Source: Catenulispora acidiphila DSM 44928 (lineage in GTDB: Bacteria > Actinomycetota > Actinomycetes > Streptomycetales > Catenulisporaceae). Taken from it: a DNA stretch of 64,000 nucleotides. The position numbers and the translations under genes were made by a program. The notes below the pieces were generated by a model. The model did no database searches. It was given only the letters and a program-made list of their open reading frames with translations, and was not told the origin of the DNA. Below, in pieces: positions 3,667 to 40,851 of the stretch. Location: positions 9,652,229 to 9,716,228 of the forward strand of contig NC_013131.1 in NCBI RefSeq assembly GCF_000024025.1, written 5' to 3'. Within the stretch, counting starts at the first letter, position 1. Every line of letters starts with the position of its first letter.

Positions 3667-4515
3667 GTGTACCGGGACAACTTCGGACTCAACGGATACA
3701 GCGCGAAGGTGGGGGGCGACCCGTTCGCCGGCACCGGCTCGCTGTCCACGCAGGTGCTGTCCACGCACGTGCCCATGCCGTCGTCGGCGTCGCTGCTGGA
3801 CCGCCAGGAGCGCGGCCTGCTCATGCTGCGCGAGGCCATCCGGGTCGTGGCCGGGGACGGCACGGGGCGCGGCGCGCACGCCGCGGGCACCCGCTCCGGC
3901 GGCGCCCGGCACGGCGGCGGCTCGGGCACCGCGGACCGCTCCGGCGGCCCGGTCGCCGGCGACGGCGAGTCCGAGGCGATGGTGCACCTGGTCCGCCAGG
4001 CGCAGGAGGGCAGCGCCGACGCCTTCGGCGAGCTCTACCGCATCTACTGCGACACGGTCTTCCGGTACATCTACTACCGCGTGTCGACCCGGGCCCTGGC
4101 CGAGGACCTCACCAGCGAGACCTTCGTCCGCGCGCTGCGCCGCATCACCACCTTCAGCTGGCAGGGCCGGGACTTCGGGGCGTGGCTGGTGACCATCGCC
4201 CGCAACCTGGTCGCCGACCACTTCAAGTCCAGCCGGCACCGCATGGAGGTCTCCACCGGGGAGATGCTCGACTCCAACGAGGTCGAGGCCTCCCCGGAGG
4301 ACTCGGTGCTGGAGCACCTGTCCAACGAGGCCCTGCTGCACGCCGTCCACCGGCTCAACGACCAGCAGCGCGAGTGCGTCACGCTCCGCTTCCTGCAGGG
4401 GCTCTCGGTGGCCGAGACCGCCGACATCATGGGCAAGAACGAGGGCGCGATCAAGACCCTGCAGTACCGCGCGGTCCGCACGCTCGCCCGACTCCTGCCG
4501 GCCGAGGCCCTCTGA
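3667..4515 (+). CDS. bldN: Developmental ECF sigma factor BldN
   Basis: ECF sigma factor that in Streptomyces directs aerial-hypha genes (chaplins, rodlins, bldM). Region 2 (AFGELYRIYCDTVFRYIYY ... TSETFVRALRRI ... FGAWLVTIARNLVADHF) and region 4 (LNDQQRECVTLRFLQGLSVAETADIMGKNEGAIKTLQYRA) closely match my memory of Streptomyces BldN. It carries the diagnostic N-terminal extension of about 100 residues, which in Streptomyces is a pro-sequence removed by proteolysis. Here the extension is Gly/Arg/Ala-rich and not conserved. The GTG start (VYRDNF, with GGGAG upstream) mirrors the known gene. A terminator follows at once, and the cognate anti-sigma gene rsbN lies 285 bp downstream. Confidence 0.93.
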   Translation: MYRDNFGLNGYSAKVGGDPFAGTGSLSTQVLSTHVPMPSSASLLDRQERGLLMLREAIRVVAGDGTGRGAHAAGTRSGGARHGGGSGTADRSGGPVAGDGESEAMVHLVRQAQEGSADAFGELYRIYCDTVFRYIYYRVSTRALAEDLTSETFVRALRRITTFSWQGRDFGAWLVTIARNLVADHFKSSRHRMEVSTGEMLDSNEVEASPEDSVLEHLSNEALLHAVHRLNDQQRECVTLRFLQGLSVAETADIMGKNEGAIKTLQYRAVRTLARLLPAEAL

Positions 4516-31054: not shown

Positions 31055-34000
31055 TCAGTGATGCGGCTTGGTGGACCCTGAGGGTCGCGGTGAGGGATCC
31101 GGGCCCTTGGAATGCCTCGGCGGATTCGGGGATTTCGAAGAGCTGGAAGAGCCCGAGGAGCCAGGACCGCTCGGCGAAACCGGACTGCGCGTGGGCCCGC
31201 TCCCGCTCTGGCCCGAGGGCATCGAGCTGGCCGAGCTGTGCGGCGCGCTCGGGCTGCTGACCGGACTGGTCGGCGTCCCGGACGGCGTGCTGCTGCTCGG
31301 CGGCGAGGACGGCGTGCTGGAGCCGCCGCCGGACGGGGAGCTGCTGGTCGGGCCGCCCGGACTGCTCGGCTTGCTCGGACCGCTCGGGCTGCCGCCGCCG
31401 GAACCGCCGCCGACACCGTTGATGGAGACCATCTGTCCGCTGGGGTCGAAGCGCACGTGCGCGGTCCACGGGCCCTTCGGCTCGCCCGCGGCGTCCACCA
31501 GGACGTGCAGCGAGGTCTGGGCGCCGCCGGCCAGCATGCCGGAGGTGGCGCTCGGGGTGAGCCAGGCGGCGTCGGGGGTCGCGGTCCAGCTGACCGGCGA
31601 GGTGCCGGAGTTCCAGAGCGTGACGACCACGTCGTGCGGGTTGTTCGAGCGCTGCGAGACGCTGATGTGCAGCTGCCCGCCGTCGCTCGGAGCCTGCGAG
31701 GGGTCGGTCTGCGAGGGCGGCGGGTCGATCGGGCCGTTGAACGGCAGCGTGTCCGTCGCGACGGGCGCCGCGGCCGACGTCGGCGTCGTCGGCGCCGTCG
31801 GCAGTTCCGCCGCGACCACCTGCGCGGTCACGGTGTCCTCGCCCGGCATCCCGCTCGCGCGCGCGCCGCCGGCGACCGGCAGTGCCGGTCCGGCGTCCGC
31901 GCTGGAACTGGGACGCGGGTAGTCCGGCGTCTGCGCGGAGTTGGCACCGGGATCCGGCGGCGAGAACAGCGTCTTGTTGCTGCCGGGCGAGGACGGCACG
32001 AAGAGCACGAACGCCGTCACCCCGGCCGCGCCGACCCCGCTGAGCACGGCGGAACTGGCGAGCGCGGACTTCACACCCGACTTCCGCCTCCGCGCGTCCT
32101 GCGCACCGCCGACGGGCCGCTGGAACACCCGCGCGTTGTCGCGCGGCGCCCGGCCGCCGGGCATCATCCCGAGCGGCATGACGGCGGTCGGCATGACCCC
32201 CGCCGGCGCGATCGGCGGCACCTGCGCGCCGGCATCCCCGGCCGCCACCGACGCCGCGACGGTCGCAGCAGCCTCATACGCGTCGCCGACCGGCGCGACA
32301 CCGCGCTGCGCGTCCTCGACGCCGCGCCGCCGGCCTTCGACAGCGGCGGCGACAGAGCTGCGGGGAACCGGTTTCCGGGTGCGGGTGGGAGTCGGGCGGA
32401 CAGGCCGGACGTCGTCGAAGACGCCGGGCCGGCGCTCGGTGCGGGCGGTGATCAGCGTGTCCTCGACGGAGGAGTTCCGCGCCGGACCGAAGGAGGCGAT
32501 GAGGTCTTCGGGGCGGAGAGCGCCGATGATTTCGGTCGGTTCGTCGCCAGTGGTGTCGGCGCCGCCGTGGGGCGCGCTCGTCGAGAGGTCTTTCCGCTCG
32601 CCCTCACGACCACGCTCGGCGCCCAGTTCCGCGAGCACATCCGCGGCGAGCGATCCCGCCGCCCGATTCCCGCGTTCGAGCCCTTCGCGGCGCGGCTCCG
32701 CAGCCGGGCCGCCGAGCAGGTCCTCGGCCAGTCCGCCGCGCTCGGCACCGAACTCCGCCGTCCTCGGGCTCCGTTCGACACCGGATTCCGCATTCCTCAA
32801 ATCCCGCGTGTCCCCGGTCGCCGCACCACCCCGCTGCGGCGTCCCGGAATCGCCCGCAAGCCCCCGGCGCGCGGCGATCGGGCCCTCGTCCAGCTCCGCC
32901 GAACCGCGGCGCAGCCACCGGCGCCGGTCGTTCCCGGCGGTCACAACAGCAGCATCGAAAGCACTTCTCTCGGGCATCGTGTTCGCCGGCTGCTTCGCGT
33001 CCGGAGACGCGGCAGCCGGGGTGCGTAATCGTTCCGGAACCGTGGCCACCTCGCCGGCGACCGCTTCGGCGGCGGCCGAGGAGACCCGGCCGGCCAGCAG
33101 GGCGCTCAGCCGCCTCGGACGGCGCTCCACCGGCATCGGCGCGGCGGCGCGGTGCGGGTGCTGCGGCCGCGCCGACGGCGGCCGCGTCGTCGCTATCGCC
33201 GGGAACCCGAAGGGGTCGAAGCGCGTCAGCCGGGTGGCGATCGCGTCCTTCTCCGCCGCCTTCTCCGGGGTGCTGTCCAGCAGGTCGCCCAGGACCCGCT
33301 CGCGCAGCTCCTTCGGCGCCGGGACGTGCGGCAGGATCGACGGAGCCTGCGGCGCCCCGAGCACCTTGTGCAGGTAGTACTGGCAGCGCGAGCAGGCGTC
33401 GACGTGTGTGACCAGCGGTTCGCGGCGCTGTGCGGTGAGCCGCCCGGACCAGCCCTCGGCCAGCGCGGCCAGGTCCGAGCAGTGCGCGCGGGAGGTGCGC
33501 AGCAGCGCCAGCGCCGCCAGCGAGCGCTCCAGCTCGTGCCAGGCCTGCGACAGGACCTCGAACGACTCCGCCGCCGGCTTGCCGAGCATCATCCCGACCG
33601 CGCGGCTCTCCATCCCGTGGCGGACCGAGAGCTCCAGCACCTCGCGGTGCGCCGCGCTCAGCCCGTCGGTGTCCGGCCAGTCCAGGGAGGCCAGCTCCGC
33701 CGAGAGCAGGGTGCGCTCCAGCCCGGCCATCGCCGCGTCCTTAGGCGCCGGGACCGGAGCCGAGGAGGCGGTCAGGCGCAGCCGCGGCAGCTTCCCGGCC
33801 CGGCAGTAGTGCCGCGTGATCGCGTACAGCCACGGCCGCAGCATCTCGGCGTCGCCGAGGTGCGCCACATGATGGTCGGCGGCGACGAAGGCACAGTAGA
33901 CCGCCGAGGCGGCGGCTTCGTGGTGGCGCAGGCCGCCGAGGGCGTAGGTGTGCAGACCGTCCGCGTAGGCGTCATAGGCCGCCGCGCGCCCCCAACTGTC

Positions 34001-34072
34001 GGAGACGCTGTCCCGGTTCACCGGGTCCGCGGGATCGCGGGGATCCGTGGCGTTCGAGTCGTGGTCTTTCAC
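31055..34072 (-). CDS. Membrane-spanning sigma/anti-sigma fusion with BACON-like ectodomain
   Basis: 1005 aa. Residues about 30-95 look like sigma-70 region 2 (AYDAYADGLHTYALGGL ... LRPWLYAITRHYCR) and about 138-190 like region 4 (LSAAHREVLELSVRHGMESRAVGMMLG). Then comes a ZAS-type zinc motif, His223-x3-Cys227-x2-Cys230 (HVDACSRC), a long disordered Arg/Ala/Glu linker (about 290-665) and one membrane helix (669-692). An immunoglobulin-like BACON-type domain (about 800-886) and a Ser/Pro/Gly tail follow. The chain joins sigma factor, anti-sigma and receptor. GTG start with TAACGT 8 nt upstream. Related ECF groups with C-terminal zinc-finger/TM extensions are known in actinobacteria, but few have been studied. 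Confidence 0.8.
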   Translation of the reverse strand: MKDHDSNATDPRDPADPVNRDSVSDSWGRAAAYDAYADGLHTYALGGLRHHEAAASAVYCAFVAADHHVAHLGDAEMLRPWLYAITRHYCRAGKLPRLRLTASSAPVPAPKDAAMAGLERTLLSAELASLDWPDTDGLSAAHREVLELSVRHGMESRAVGMMLGKPAAESFEVLSQAWHELERSLAALALLRTSRAHCSDLAALAEGWSGRLTAQRREPLVTHVDACSRCQYYLHKVLGAPQAPSILPHVPAPKELRERVLGDLLDSTPEKAAEKDAIATRLTRFDPFGFPAIATTRPPSARPQHPHRAAAPMPVERRPRRLSALLAGRVSSAAAEAVAGEVATVPERLRTPAAASPDAKQPANTMPERSAFDAAVVTAGNDRRRWLRRGSAELDEGPIAARRGLAGDSGTPQRGGAATGDTRDLRNAESGVERSPRTAEFGAERGGLAEDLLGGPAAEPRREGLERGNRAAGSLAADVLAELGAERGREGERKDLSTSAPHGGADTTGDEPTEIIGALRPEDLIASFGPARNSSVEDTLITARTERRPGVFDDVRPVRPTPTRTRKPVPRSSVAAAVEGRRRGVEDAQRGVAPVGDAYEAAATVAASVAAGDAGAQVPPIAPAGVMPTAVMPLGMMPGGRAPRDNARVFQRPVGGAQDARRRKSGVKSALASSAVLSGVGAAGVTAFVLFVPSSPGSNKTLFSPPDPGANSAQTPDYPRPSSSADAGPALPVAGGARASGMPGEDTVTAQVVAAELPTAPTTPTSAAAPVATDTLPFNGPIDPPPSQTDPSQAPSDGGQLHISVSQRSNNPHDVVVTLWNSGTSPVSWTATPDAAWLTPSATSGMLAGGAQTSLHVLVDAAGEPKGPWTAHVRFDPSGQMVSINGVGGGSGGGSPSGPSKPSSPGGPTSSSPSGGGSSTPSSPPSSSTPSGTPTSPVSSPSAPHSSASSMPSGQSGSGPTRSPVSPSGPGSSGSSSSSKSPNPPRHSKGPDPSPRPSGSTKPHH

Positions 34073-34117
34073 ACCAGCCGACGTTAGACACCTGTCGGTG
34101 AGCCGATGAGTGGAACG

Positions 34118-34158
34118 GGCCCAGGTTGCCCCCTTCGAGGGGTTCTGCGACCTGGGCC
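34118..34158 (-). terminator. Terminator between the two sigma-fusion genes
   Basis: Outer arms GGCCCAGGT / ACCTGGGCC enclose an inner hairpin CCCC-TTCGA-GGGG. It lies about 75 bp past the 34235-35551 gene, so the two fusions are probably separate transcripts. Confidence 0.7.
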
Positions 34159-34234
34159 GTAACCAAACGCCGGGGTCACCCGGCCGAGCGACGCGCGGGG
34201 CTCGGGCCGACGCCGCGACCGGGCGAGCAGGTGA

Positions 34235-35551
34235 TCAGCCGGTGCCGGTGCTGGTGGTGGTCGTCGGCGGAGTCACCGACGAGGTGGTGTTGCTCGGCAG
34301 TCCCGGGCCCGTGGGCAGCGACGGCGTCGTCGACGGCGGGGGCGGGACGCTGCTCGGCGTGGTCGCCGACGTGGTCGGCTTCCTGCTCGGCGTGGACGTG
34401 GTGTGCGAGGCCGAGGTGGTCCGCCGGGTGGTCGCCGTGGTGTGGTGCGTCGCCCCTCCGGTGTCCTGCCCGCCGGTCGTCGCGCCGGCGGTGTCCGTCG
34501 GGGTACCGGTCGCGGAGTCCGTGGCCTGCTGCGTCGGCGTCGAGGGCGCACCGTCCGTGGCGGTGCTGCTGTCCGCGCCGGACGCCGAGCTCGACGTCGA
34601 CGTCGTGGCGCCGGTCCCGGCCGGTCCGCTGGGCTTGCTGCCCCCGCCGCCGACCATCGCCACCGCGACGCCGCCGACCGCCAGCACGCCCAGCACGATG
34701 CCGGCTATCGGCAGCAGCTTGCGCGCGCCGCCGACACCGGACTTGCCGCCGGCGTGGGGGAATCCGGACTCGTCGAAGGCGCCGGCCCGGGTCGCGATGC
34801 GCTGGCAGAAGGCCTCGCCGGCCGGGTCGCGCAGGGTGTCCAGCACCCGGGCGCGCACGCCCGGCGGGACGAAGGCGGTCGGCAGCTCCTCGAACAGCCG
34901 CAGCGGACGCCGGTTCTCTATGTGGTCCGCGCACGCCTGGTCGGCCTTCACGTGCCGGGAGACCGAATCCAGCCAGGGCTCGACGGCCTTGCCGTCCAGC
35001 CGGTCGAAGCGCTTGCCCAGCTCGGCGATCTCCGCGCAGCGCGGGTCGCCGACCCGGTTGGCCAGCACCGCGGTCAGACCGTTCTCCAGGTCCTCCTGGG
35101 CGTCCTGGACGACCTGCCCGATCTGCTCCTCGGACATGTCCATGACCAGCGCCAGGTCCCCGTCGACCATCCGGTGCCGGAAGGCCAGGTCGAGGATCTC
35201 GCGGGTCTCCGGCGGCAGCATCGCGTAGACGTCCAGCGCGGCCCGGGCGAACCGGTCGTTGCGGGTGCCCTGCGCGGCGTCGGCGGGGATGTCGTCGGAG
35301 ACGCCCAGGCGCAGCGCCTCGTTGCGGCTCAGCGCGTAGAGCCAGGCGCCGAGCTCGTCGGGGTTGGCCAGCTCGCGGATCCGGTTGTTGGCGACGATGA
35401 ACGCATCACGCAGCGCGTCGGCGGCCAGCTCATGATCGGCGAGCAGGTCGTAACAATATGCATACAAGCGCGCGCCGTATGTGTCGTAGATCTGCCCGAT
35501 GGCGAGCTGATCCCCCGCGCGCAGCGCCGTCACCATTTCCCGGTCTGTCAC
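34235..35551 (-). CDS. Membrane-spanning sigma-70/anti-sigma fusion, Ser/Thr-rich ectodomain
   Basis: 438 aa. Sigma region 2 (about 17-82: AIGQIYDTYGARLYAYCYDLL ... LGAWLYALSRNEALR) is better preserved than in the neighbouring paralogue. Region 4 (about 112-160) reads LPPETREILDLAFRHRMVDGDLALVMDMS. A degenerate zinc-type motif follows (His200-x6-Cys207-x2-His210), then one membrane helix (about 278-300) and a 135-residue Ser/Thr/Pro tail, probably outside and possibly glycosylated. GTG start with TAACGT 8 nt upstream, the same layout as the paralogue. Probably a self-contained sensing sigma factor; release would need proteolysis. Inference from architecture. Confidence 0.8.
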   Translation of the reverse strand: MTDREMVTALRAGDQLAIGQIYDTYGARLYAYCYDLLADHELAADALRDAFIVANNRIRELANPDELGAWLYALSRNEALRLGVSDDIPADAAQGTRNDRFARAALDVYAMLPPETREILDLAFRHRMVDGDLALVMDMSEEQIGQVVQDAQEDLENGLTAVLANRVGDPRCAEIAELGKRFDRLDGKAVEPWLDSVSRHVKADQACADHIENRRPLRLFEELPTAFVPPGVRARVLDTLRDPAGEAFCQRIATRAGAFDESGFPHAGGKSGVGGARKLLPIAGIVLGVLAVGGVAVAMVGGGGSKPSGPAGTGATTSTSSSASGADSSTATDGAPSTPTQQATDSATGTPTDTAGATTGGQDTGGATHHTTATTRRTTSASHTTSTPSRKPTTSATTPSSVPPPPSTTPSLPTGPGLPSNTTSSVTPPTTTTSTGTG

Positions 35552-35732
35552 GGCCCCAGACGTTAAGCCATCCGAGCGACAACTAGCCAGTGGATCAGGC
35601 CATTCGACCAGAGGTTGCCGCCGGAATCATCCTGTTTATACCGATAAGCGCAGCCCAAAAGTTCCCCGCGCCTGCTTGAGGCGCCCTCGCGGCGGCCCGG
35701 TCCGTGTCGGAGCGGACCGCTACCGTGGCCTC

Positions 35733-39978: not shown

Positions 39979-40851
39979 TCAGCTGCCGGTCTTCAGCTCG
40001 AAGGTCTTCGGCTGGCTCTGCGCGGCCGGAGCGTTCGGACCGCTGCCGGCGCCCAGGCTCACCACGCTGTAGTACGTGCCGAGCGCCGCCGAGCCGTTGG
40101 GGTGAGTGCATCCCGCGGCGGAGCGGGTACGGTCCCAGGTGTAGGTGACGGTCTGGACCGCGCCGGGGGCGATGCCGCGCACGTCCGGGCCGCCGGTCGC
40201 GCAGTCCGCCGAGGACCAGACGTGGTCCCGGCCGGAGTAGACGTTCAGGACCAGGGACTTCGGGCTGACGTCGACGTCGCAGTCGGCGGTGCCCTTGTTG
40301 ACCACGGCGACGGTGAACTGCGGGTCGACGCCGTTGGCGTAGGCCGCGGCCTGCGAGGTCAGGCTGAGATTGAGCTGGCAGCCCGGGCCGTTGGTGCCGC
40401 TCGGGCCGCTGGCGCCGCTCGCGCCGCCGGTGGCCGGGCCGGTGCCGGCGGTGCCGCCGGTCGTGCCGTTCGCGCCGCCGGTTCCTCCGGTGCCACCAGT
40501 GCCGCCGGTTCCGCCAGTGCCTCCGGTCCCGCCGTTGCTGCCGGTCGCGGAAGCCGTGCCGCCATTGCTGCCGGAGGGCGCACCCGCGCTGGAGGACGAG
40601 GCTCCGCCGGACGCGCCGCCGTTCGCCGCCGTCTGCGTGGAACTGCCGCCGGTGCCCGGCACCGAGGACTGCGACGCGACCGGGCCGCTGCTCGAGCCGT
40701 GGGCGGAGGGCTGCTTCTTCCCGGAGCCCGAACCCGAGCACGCGTAGAGGAGCAGCGCCAGCACGGCGAGGACAGCCAGCGCAACTAAAACGCGCCGCCG
40801 CCAATAGACGGCGGGCGCGAGAGATCCAACGGGATTTCGAAGCGAACCCAC
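39979..40851 (-). CDS. Secreted lipoprotein with Gly-Thr repeats and DUF4232-like domain
   Basis: 290 aa. RRRVLVALAVLAVLALLLYAC gives a signal ending in Cys38 (possible lipobox LYAC). A Gly/Ser/Thr linker contains the tandem GGTGGTGGTGGTGGTGG. The C-terminal domain (QLNLSLTSQAAAYANGVDPQFTVAVVNKGTADCDVDVS ... VTYTWDRTRSAAGC) resembles DUF4232-type beta-sandwich domains with paired Cys. Extracellular, function unknown. It is divergent from mutY, an arrangement I recall from other actinomycetes. Confidence 0.7.
   Translation of the reverse strand: MGSLRNPVGSLAPAVYWRRRVLVALAVLAVLALLLYACSGSGSGKKQPSAHGSSSGPVASQSSVPGTGGSSTQTAANGGASGGASSSSAGAPSGSNGGTASATGSNGGTGGTGGTGGTGGTGGTGGANGTTGGTAGTGPATGGASGASGPSGTNGPGCQLNLSLTSQAAAYANGVDPQFTVAVVNKGTADCDVDVSPKSLVLNVYSGRDHVWSSADCATGGPDVRGIAPGAVQTVTYTWDRTRSAAGCTHPNGSAALGTYYSVVSLGAGSGPNAPAAQSQPKTFELKTGS

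Follow-up and report, generated by a model that had tools for sequence, protein, structure and literature searches.

Two adjacent minus-strand genes, here called small and big, lie in a stretch of 64,000 nucleotides from Catenulispora acidiphila DSM 44928 (contig NC_013131.1, positions 9,652,229 to 9,716,228; the whole stretch is referred to as the window). The genome consists of a single contig, 10,467,782 bases long. Each gene encodes sigma-like and anti-sigma-like domains in a single membrane-anchored chain, and the locus raises the question of whether these chains are working extracytoplasmic function (ECF) sigma factors or proteins in which the sigma fold serves another purpose. Published work has described extended ECFs as one-component systems, and the original prediction, made from the sequence, took the first view, that of a tethered sigma released only by cleavage. 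On balance we favour the second: both appear to be sigma-like/anti-sigma-like signalling proteins anchored in the membrane, with the clamped ECF fold kept, the promoter and core chemistry largely lost, and the whole maintained for another purpose. Small and big are thus probably sigma mimics and not true sigma factors. This answer is built on their architecture, the closed predicted fold, the loss of sigma determinants, purifying selection and a conserved locus.

Domain architecture and predicted structures

AlphaFold 2 (AF2) models, hydropathy, Pfam and motifs confirmed that both open reading frames (ORFs) fuse sigma2, sigma4, a zinc anti-sigma domain, a transmembrane (TM) helix and an outer part in one chain, as had been predicted. 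The sigma2 and sigma4 folds were present in both models (AF2 plus VIA-align), each in a closed arrangement like that of SigW/RsiW and CnrH/CnrY; RsiW was also a weak match (E 0.0046) to the profile of the big family, over 195-252 in its zinc domain. Both TM helices had an excess of positive charge on the N-terminal flank. The linker of big was placed in the cytoplasm and its BACON domain outside, and the outer tail of small was rich in Thr, Ser, Pro and Gly and held no Pfam domain.

Pfam detected Sigma70_r2 alone on small (25.4 bits, cut-off 24) and BACON_2 alone on big (27.8 bits, cut-off 25), the latter bearing out the BACON-like ectodomain that had been proposed. No receiver domain was matched in either protein (Pfam, E<=1); the zinc domain and TM helix come next instead. 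When 150 of 164 candidates of the own genome were scored, small ranked 111th among 113 Sigma70_r2 matches and big was absent from them. Neither gene was in the corresponding Sigma70_r4_2 list, an absence that is weak, with 150 of 433 candidates scored. A PHROGs search gave no result. Existing names for these genes are sigma factor, BACON-domain protein or hypothetical protein.

The zinc anti-sigma (ZAS) ligand pattern C...HxxxCxxC was satisfied by big and not by small. The canonical motif reported for big, H223-x3-C227-x2-C230, held up, with C198 added as a ligand: the exact C-x24-HxxxCxxC spacing recurred in 78 of 80 big-family rows, one more had x27 and one was unmatched, leaving the ligands complete in 79/80. 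The motif first reported for small, His200-x6-Cys207-x2-His210, was misparsed; the correct reading is C172...H200-x3-D204-x2-C207, in which C172, H200 and C207 are present and D204 occupies the place of the first Cys of HxxxCxxC. This position was Asp in all 38 readable Catenulispora-like rows of the small family (P0091-P0128, P0200 and the window) and Cys in all 81 remaining rows; two of the 121 rows were unreadable.

Replacement of sigma2 determinants

Controls were 111 of the 113 Sigma70_r2 matches of the own genome, small itself and the weakest match (C1:4366321) being left out; for the sigma2 columns, eight primary or other non-ECF-like sigmas were removed by eye, leaving 103. In region 2.2, Asp, Gln and Glu are core-binding residues, and the Gln touches the beta-prime clamp. 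This Gln was present in 92% of the 103 controls and was replaced by Arg in 121/121 small-family rows and by Tyr in 80/80 big-family rows. The window big protein also has Ser for the Asp, which is kept in 76% of big rows, and Cys at the Glu place; neither window protein carries the complete core-binding set. The charge of the segment after region 2.4 was 0 to +6 in the controls (n=103) and -4 to -1 in all 121 small rows.

Charge of the sigma4 recognition helix

Helix charge was taken as the net charge of the 18-residue recognition-helix segment. It was measured in 102 of the 111 controls; a sigma4 profile match was needed for measurement, and the control set therefore favours canonical helices. 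In these 102 sigmas the charge was +1 to +6 (median +4), compared to -6 in window small and -3 in window big; the basic sigma4 helix for reading the -35 element was found in neither. Nine controls had no usable sigma4 profile match (L007, L026, L033, L042, L057, L066, L077, L093 and L108). Six of these, read otherwise, gave +1 to +5: L033, L066, L077 and L108 had helices of +3 to +5 when cut by motif, L026 had +1 and L042 +3; L057, L093 and L007 stand outside the helix figures.

The small family had helix charges of -7 to 0 in 120/121 rows (one unread). For the big family, whose helix-turn-helix pattern matched 75 of 80 rows, the charge was -4 to +1 in the 75 readable rows. The stretch at the turn was 18 to 80 residues long in 61 of these instead of the normal 12, indicating that the turn is broken up; the window big protein and 13 other rows had the normal 12-residue turn.

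These results bear directly on the possibility that the proteins are true one-component ECF sigmas, as proposed for ECF52, which are held by their own anti-sigma domain until proteolysis frees the sigma for unusual promoters. Their architecture is that of ECF48, ECF52 and ECF53 as described in PMC8999054. According to PMC5826349 and PMC8999054, the ECF52 protein SCO4117 affects development, and part of the effect is retained when it is truncated of its zinc finger, TM helix and outer module. The fold and the sigma2 Trp are kept, and relatives of the same architecture elsewhere look functional. Set against this are the acidic recognition helix of both window proteins, the acidic post-2.4 segment of small, the replacement of the region-2.2 Gln in all rows of both families, and the extra turn residues in 61 of the 75 readable big relatives; we consider true sigma activity fairly unlikely. 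The check attached to the original prediction was thus divided in its outcome: the sigma2 and sigma4 folds were present, and loss of the promoter- and core-contacting residues was largely found. Since this loss is read from sequence and models, the earlier interpretation is best regarded as partly supported: the fused chain stands, but a working sigma released by cleavage is poorly supported, given the acidic helices and the lost Gln.

Two other arrangements were rejected. A complementary loss, with small as the sigma and big as the zinc site of a rebuilt pair, does not hold as a general rule because the Cys-to-Asp change is confined to Catenulispora-like rows and small has lost DNA-contact charge too. 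A split sigma like SigO-RsoA was dismissed, since sigma4 is intact in neither protein.

Purifying selection on the sigma-like domains

Omega was obtained by comparison with six relatives, L001-L005 (Catenulispora) and L185 (same genus). In small it was 0.05-0.18 for sigma2 and 0.05-0.25 for sigma4, and in big 0.02-0.14 and 0.04-0.17, respectively; the neighbouring RadA and DisA had values of 0.11-0.18 and 0.07-0.13. Values for the zinc domains were 0.12-0.27 in small and 0.21-0.30 in big. The linker, the outer part and the tails gave 0.41-0.93 where enough codons aligned, although alignment is itself uncertain in the disordered linker and in the tails. Sigma2 and sigma4 are therefore constrained about as strongly as RadA and DisA, and the linker and tails are relaxed. 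Several sigma determinants are lost yet sigma2 and sigma4 are tightly constrained, which points to maintained sigma-like domains, as in PhyR. To our knowledge, PhyR is the only case of sigma-factor control by mimicry.

The same values speak to the idea of an intramolecular lid, in which a sigma-like domain with no partner of its own shuts the zinc domain until a signal frees the latter for a separate sigma. Complete zinc ligands in 79/80 big rows and the closed arrangement of the models are in keeping with a lid; in big, however, sigma2 is under tighter constraint than the zinc domain, and in this genus small lacks one of the Cys residues, making this explanation very improbable.

Distribution, locus and phylogeny

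Big-type matches occurred in 59 of the 60 genomes examined from the order. The tandem arrangement noted at the outset was borne out, the pair lying side by side on one contig in 15/15 genomes of families f1 and f3. In the third family, f2, the match lay at a single gene in 44 of 45 genomes, with a short stretch only in one of the 44. The homologues P0084 (Streptomyces), P0087 and P0089 (both Kitasatospora) suggest that f2 is Streptomycetaceae. Gene order was isomerase-Ppx-DUF-fusion-RadA-DisA (DUF, domain of unknown function) in all five f2 loci read, and the f1 and f3 loci read had the same order within contig reach, except that no DUF was hit in the f3 locus.

Sequence readings in f2 cover 26 of the 44 sequences, those whose loci were fetched. 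All 26 had Gly or Ala at the region-2.2 Gln position, a helix charge of -5 to -1, and the H, C and C of HxxxCxxC. A Cys recurs in the former recognition helix of f2 proteins, those of L131-L136 and of other f2 loci (ACEVE, SCEVE, ACELE), possibly a thiol site.

Decaying relics without function might be expected to look as the sigma parts do, with their determinants gone and Pfam barely detecting them. Omega of 0.02-0.25 across sigma2 and sigma4, clade-specific replacements fixed in 121/121 and 80/80 rows, and a gene matched in 59/60 genomes of the order leave decay hardly credible; replacements that are fixed and clade-specific argue for changed function instead.

Across the class and phylum, relatives of the same architecture were scattered (at most 13 candidates per genome were scored, and many matches were to the sigma part only). 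Among 24 tabulated relatives outside these clades, a count that takes in two own-genome proteins and g2_third, the Gln position held Gln in 18, His in five and Ala in one (L191), and the helix charge was 0 to +4. The protein g2_third (L184, G005:C396, 9505-10398) is a third copy in one f1 genome; with the region-2.2 Gln kept and a helix of +1, it looks canonical and may be a true sigma. In the own genome, L026 and L042 (C1:1001506 and C1:2858195; frames of 640 and 707 residues) are sigma-zinc fusions encoded at a distance from the window; their sigma2 motifs are intact, which makes them possible functional relatives.

A maximum-likelihood tree placed big, the f2 genes and P0080 in one clade (100/100). 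Small formed a separate clade whose attachment the tree did not settle, with f3_small on a long branch. A recent tandem duplication within the genus found no support in the tree: big groups with the f2 genes and P0080, and small stands apart. The f3 small-type protein (L176, 9063-9842) is the lone basic exception among the tabulated small- and big-type representatives.

Evidence against mimicry and a proposed mechanism

Several observations weigh against our preferred explanation. Most big-family helices are about neutral (-1 in 31/75 and 0 in 26/75), and the helix of f3_small, a long branch in the tree, is very basic (+6) though the protein has Arg at the Gln position. Same-architecture relatives, at 0 to +4, already lie below the genome controls, so that part of the shift is older. 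The post-2.4 segment of window big is basic (+5, with -1 to +5 among the 80 big rows), and big thus keeps this feature. Alignments to AlgU/MucA, sigma-E/RseA and SigK/RskA covered sigma2 alone or stood at 9 A, which makes the closed arrangement one of a single kind, and Foldseek E-values were weak (best 9.6e-4 for small and 9.1e-3 for big). Charges and single residues stand here as proxies for binding, PhyR-like mimicry is drawn by analogy, and the partner anti-sigma is only hypothetical.

All small-family rows, moreover, retain Asp in region 2.2 and Trp in region 2.3, with an acidic residue in the place of Glu, and weak core binding by small is possible. The same residues, and a sigma2 that is among the most constrained parts, would suit a local anti-sigma or an adaptor that binds RNA polymerase, whose altered sigma2 touches the polymerase clamp without promoter reading and which either holds polymerase at the membrane or keeps other sigmas blocked until a signal arrives. 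Such a role has to contend with the change of the core-binding Gln to Arg or Tyr and with Ser for the 2.2 Asp in window big, and we regard it as distinctly unlikely.

If small and big are sigma mimics, a signal from outside or in the membrane, or a change at the zinc or thiol site, would open the closed module, probably through intramembrane cleavage; regulated proteolysis has been shown for IutY and is expected for ECF48, ECF52 and ECF53 (PMC8999054). The freed sigma-like domain would work through contacts with other proteins and compete for an anti-sigma factor, like the sigma-like domain of PhyR; the sigma-like part or the zinc domain would bind the partner, and a genuine sigma would thereby be released. 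We infer the trigger, the cleavage, the mimicry, the partner and the protein-contact role of the sigma part by analogy, and partner binding is the weakest step of the proposal. More tentatively, these genes may represent an order-wide lineage of membrane-tethered mimics beside radA-disA, spanning a Streptomycetaceae-like family and the Catenulispora-Actinospica group, that serve as decoys freeing another sigma on an envelope signal and start no transcription, with Arg-type and Tyr-type mimics paired in the Catenulispora-Actinospica group.

Mimicry would mean that a gene with matches in 59 of the 60 genomes sampled has been misread, in an order that presumably holds the main antibiotic producers. 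It would also provide a testable case of a one-chain sigma/anti-sigma fusion that loses transcription and keeps signalling.

Promoters and coordinates

Small and big lie head to tail, and small is divergent from radA (35676, plus strand). Both start with GTG 8 nt after TAACGT, as had been noted, and the TAnnnT box at this distance was conserved in 7/7 small and 6/7 big genes, the window counted; L004 is the big gene without a confirmed box, its start not being located by motif. A TAnnnT box exactly 8 nt upstream of both GTG codons and kept in relatives fits separate leaderless promoters, and each gene probably has its own promoter and a leaderless transcript.

Table 1. Features of the small and big genes, numbered from the first letter of the window (pLDDT, predicted local distance difference test).
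Feature	Position	Strand	Remarks
Small fusion protein, 438 aa	34235..35551	-	sigma2 ~11-86, sigma4 98-166, zinc anti-sigma-like 167-265, TM ~279-300, outer tail 301-438
Small sigma2-like domain, residues 11-86	35294..35521	-	Pfam Sigma70_r2 25.4 bits; region-2.2 Gln to Arg; post-2.4 segment acidic
Small sigma4-like domain, residues 98-166	35054..35260	-	recognition helix net charge -6
Small anti-sigma-like zinc domain, residues 167-265	34757..35053	-	C172...H200-x3-D204-x2-C207
Small TM helix, ~279-300	34652..34717	-	hydropathy; model helix 283-300 at low pLDDT
Big fusion protein, 1005 aa	31055..34072	-	sigma2 27-95, sigma4 110-192, zinc anti-sigma-like 193-292, linker ~300-670, TM ~671-692, BACON 809-867, Ser/Pro/Gly-rich C-terminus
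Big sigma2-like domain, 27-95	33788..33994	-	region-2.2 Gln to Tyr; no Pfam sigma match at E<=1
Big sigma4-like domain, 110-192	33497..33745	-	recognition helix net charge -3
Big zinc anti-sigma-like domain, 193-292	33197..33496	-	C198-x24-H223-x3-C227-x2-C230
Big BACON_2 domain, 809-867	31472..31648	-	Pfam 27.8 bits, cut-off 25
TAACGT, likely -10 box of small gene, leaderless promoter	35560..35565	-	conserved TAnnnT at -14
TAACGT, likely -10 box of big gene, leaderless promoter	34081..34086	-	conserved TAnnnT at -14

Elsewhere in the window, a sigma factor gene (C1:9656261, L027) lies at about 4033-4236 on the plus strand; its sigma2 may resemble that of BldN. An ORF at 39979-40851 (minus strand) is hydrophobic at its N-terminus and carries a long repeat rich in Gly and Thr ahead of its last domain.

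Comparison with known systems

Fused ECF/zinc/TM proteins are an established kind, as PMC8999054 sets out for ECF48, ECF52 and ECF53 and PMC5826349 for SCO4117, and the architecture reported here is therefore not new. The layout of these groups (sigma, zinc finger, one or two TM helices and an outer extension in one chain) was found in both window proteins, with an incomplete zinc site in small, which bears out the expectation of relatives among extended ECF groups. Compared by architecture as described there, the window proteins resemble ECF52 (SCO4117), ECF53 and ECF48 in their sigma2-sigma4-zinc-TM-outer order and in belonging to Actinobacteria; activation by proteolysis is expected for these groups (PMC8999054). 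Unlike them, the window proteins have lost several sigma determinants, carry BACON or a bare tail as their outer part, and form a tandem pair at a RadA-DisA locus. No description of this locus, or of such determinant loss across the RadA-DisA-linked branch, was found in the literature searched, at the level of titles and the starts of abstracts.

The closed sigma arrangement of the models is shared with SigW/RsiW and CnrH/CnrY, in each of which a functional sigma and its partner are separate chains. Likened here by description, IutY (ECF243) joins a sigma and a membrane anti-sigma in one chain, as the window proteins do, and its activation by proteolysis is reported in PMC8999054; it belongs to Pseudomonas iron cell-surface signalling and has a functional sigma. 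The loss of promoter and core determinants from an ECF fold recalls PhyR of Alphaproteobacteria; according to PMC8103513, its corresponding regions have degenerated and it works by titrating the anti-sigma NepR. Matches to Pfam PhyR_sigma2 in 3/11 rows are no evidence here, as the best (E 0.0015) comes from a canonical relative, member 1. PhyR acts as a response regulator and carries a C-terminal receiver domain, whereas the module described here is joined to a zinc anti-sigma-like domain and anchored in the membrane; if our explanation is true, small and big would be a membrane-anchored counterpart to PhyR-type mimicry.

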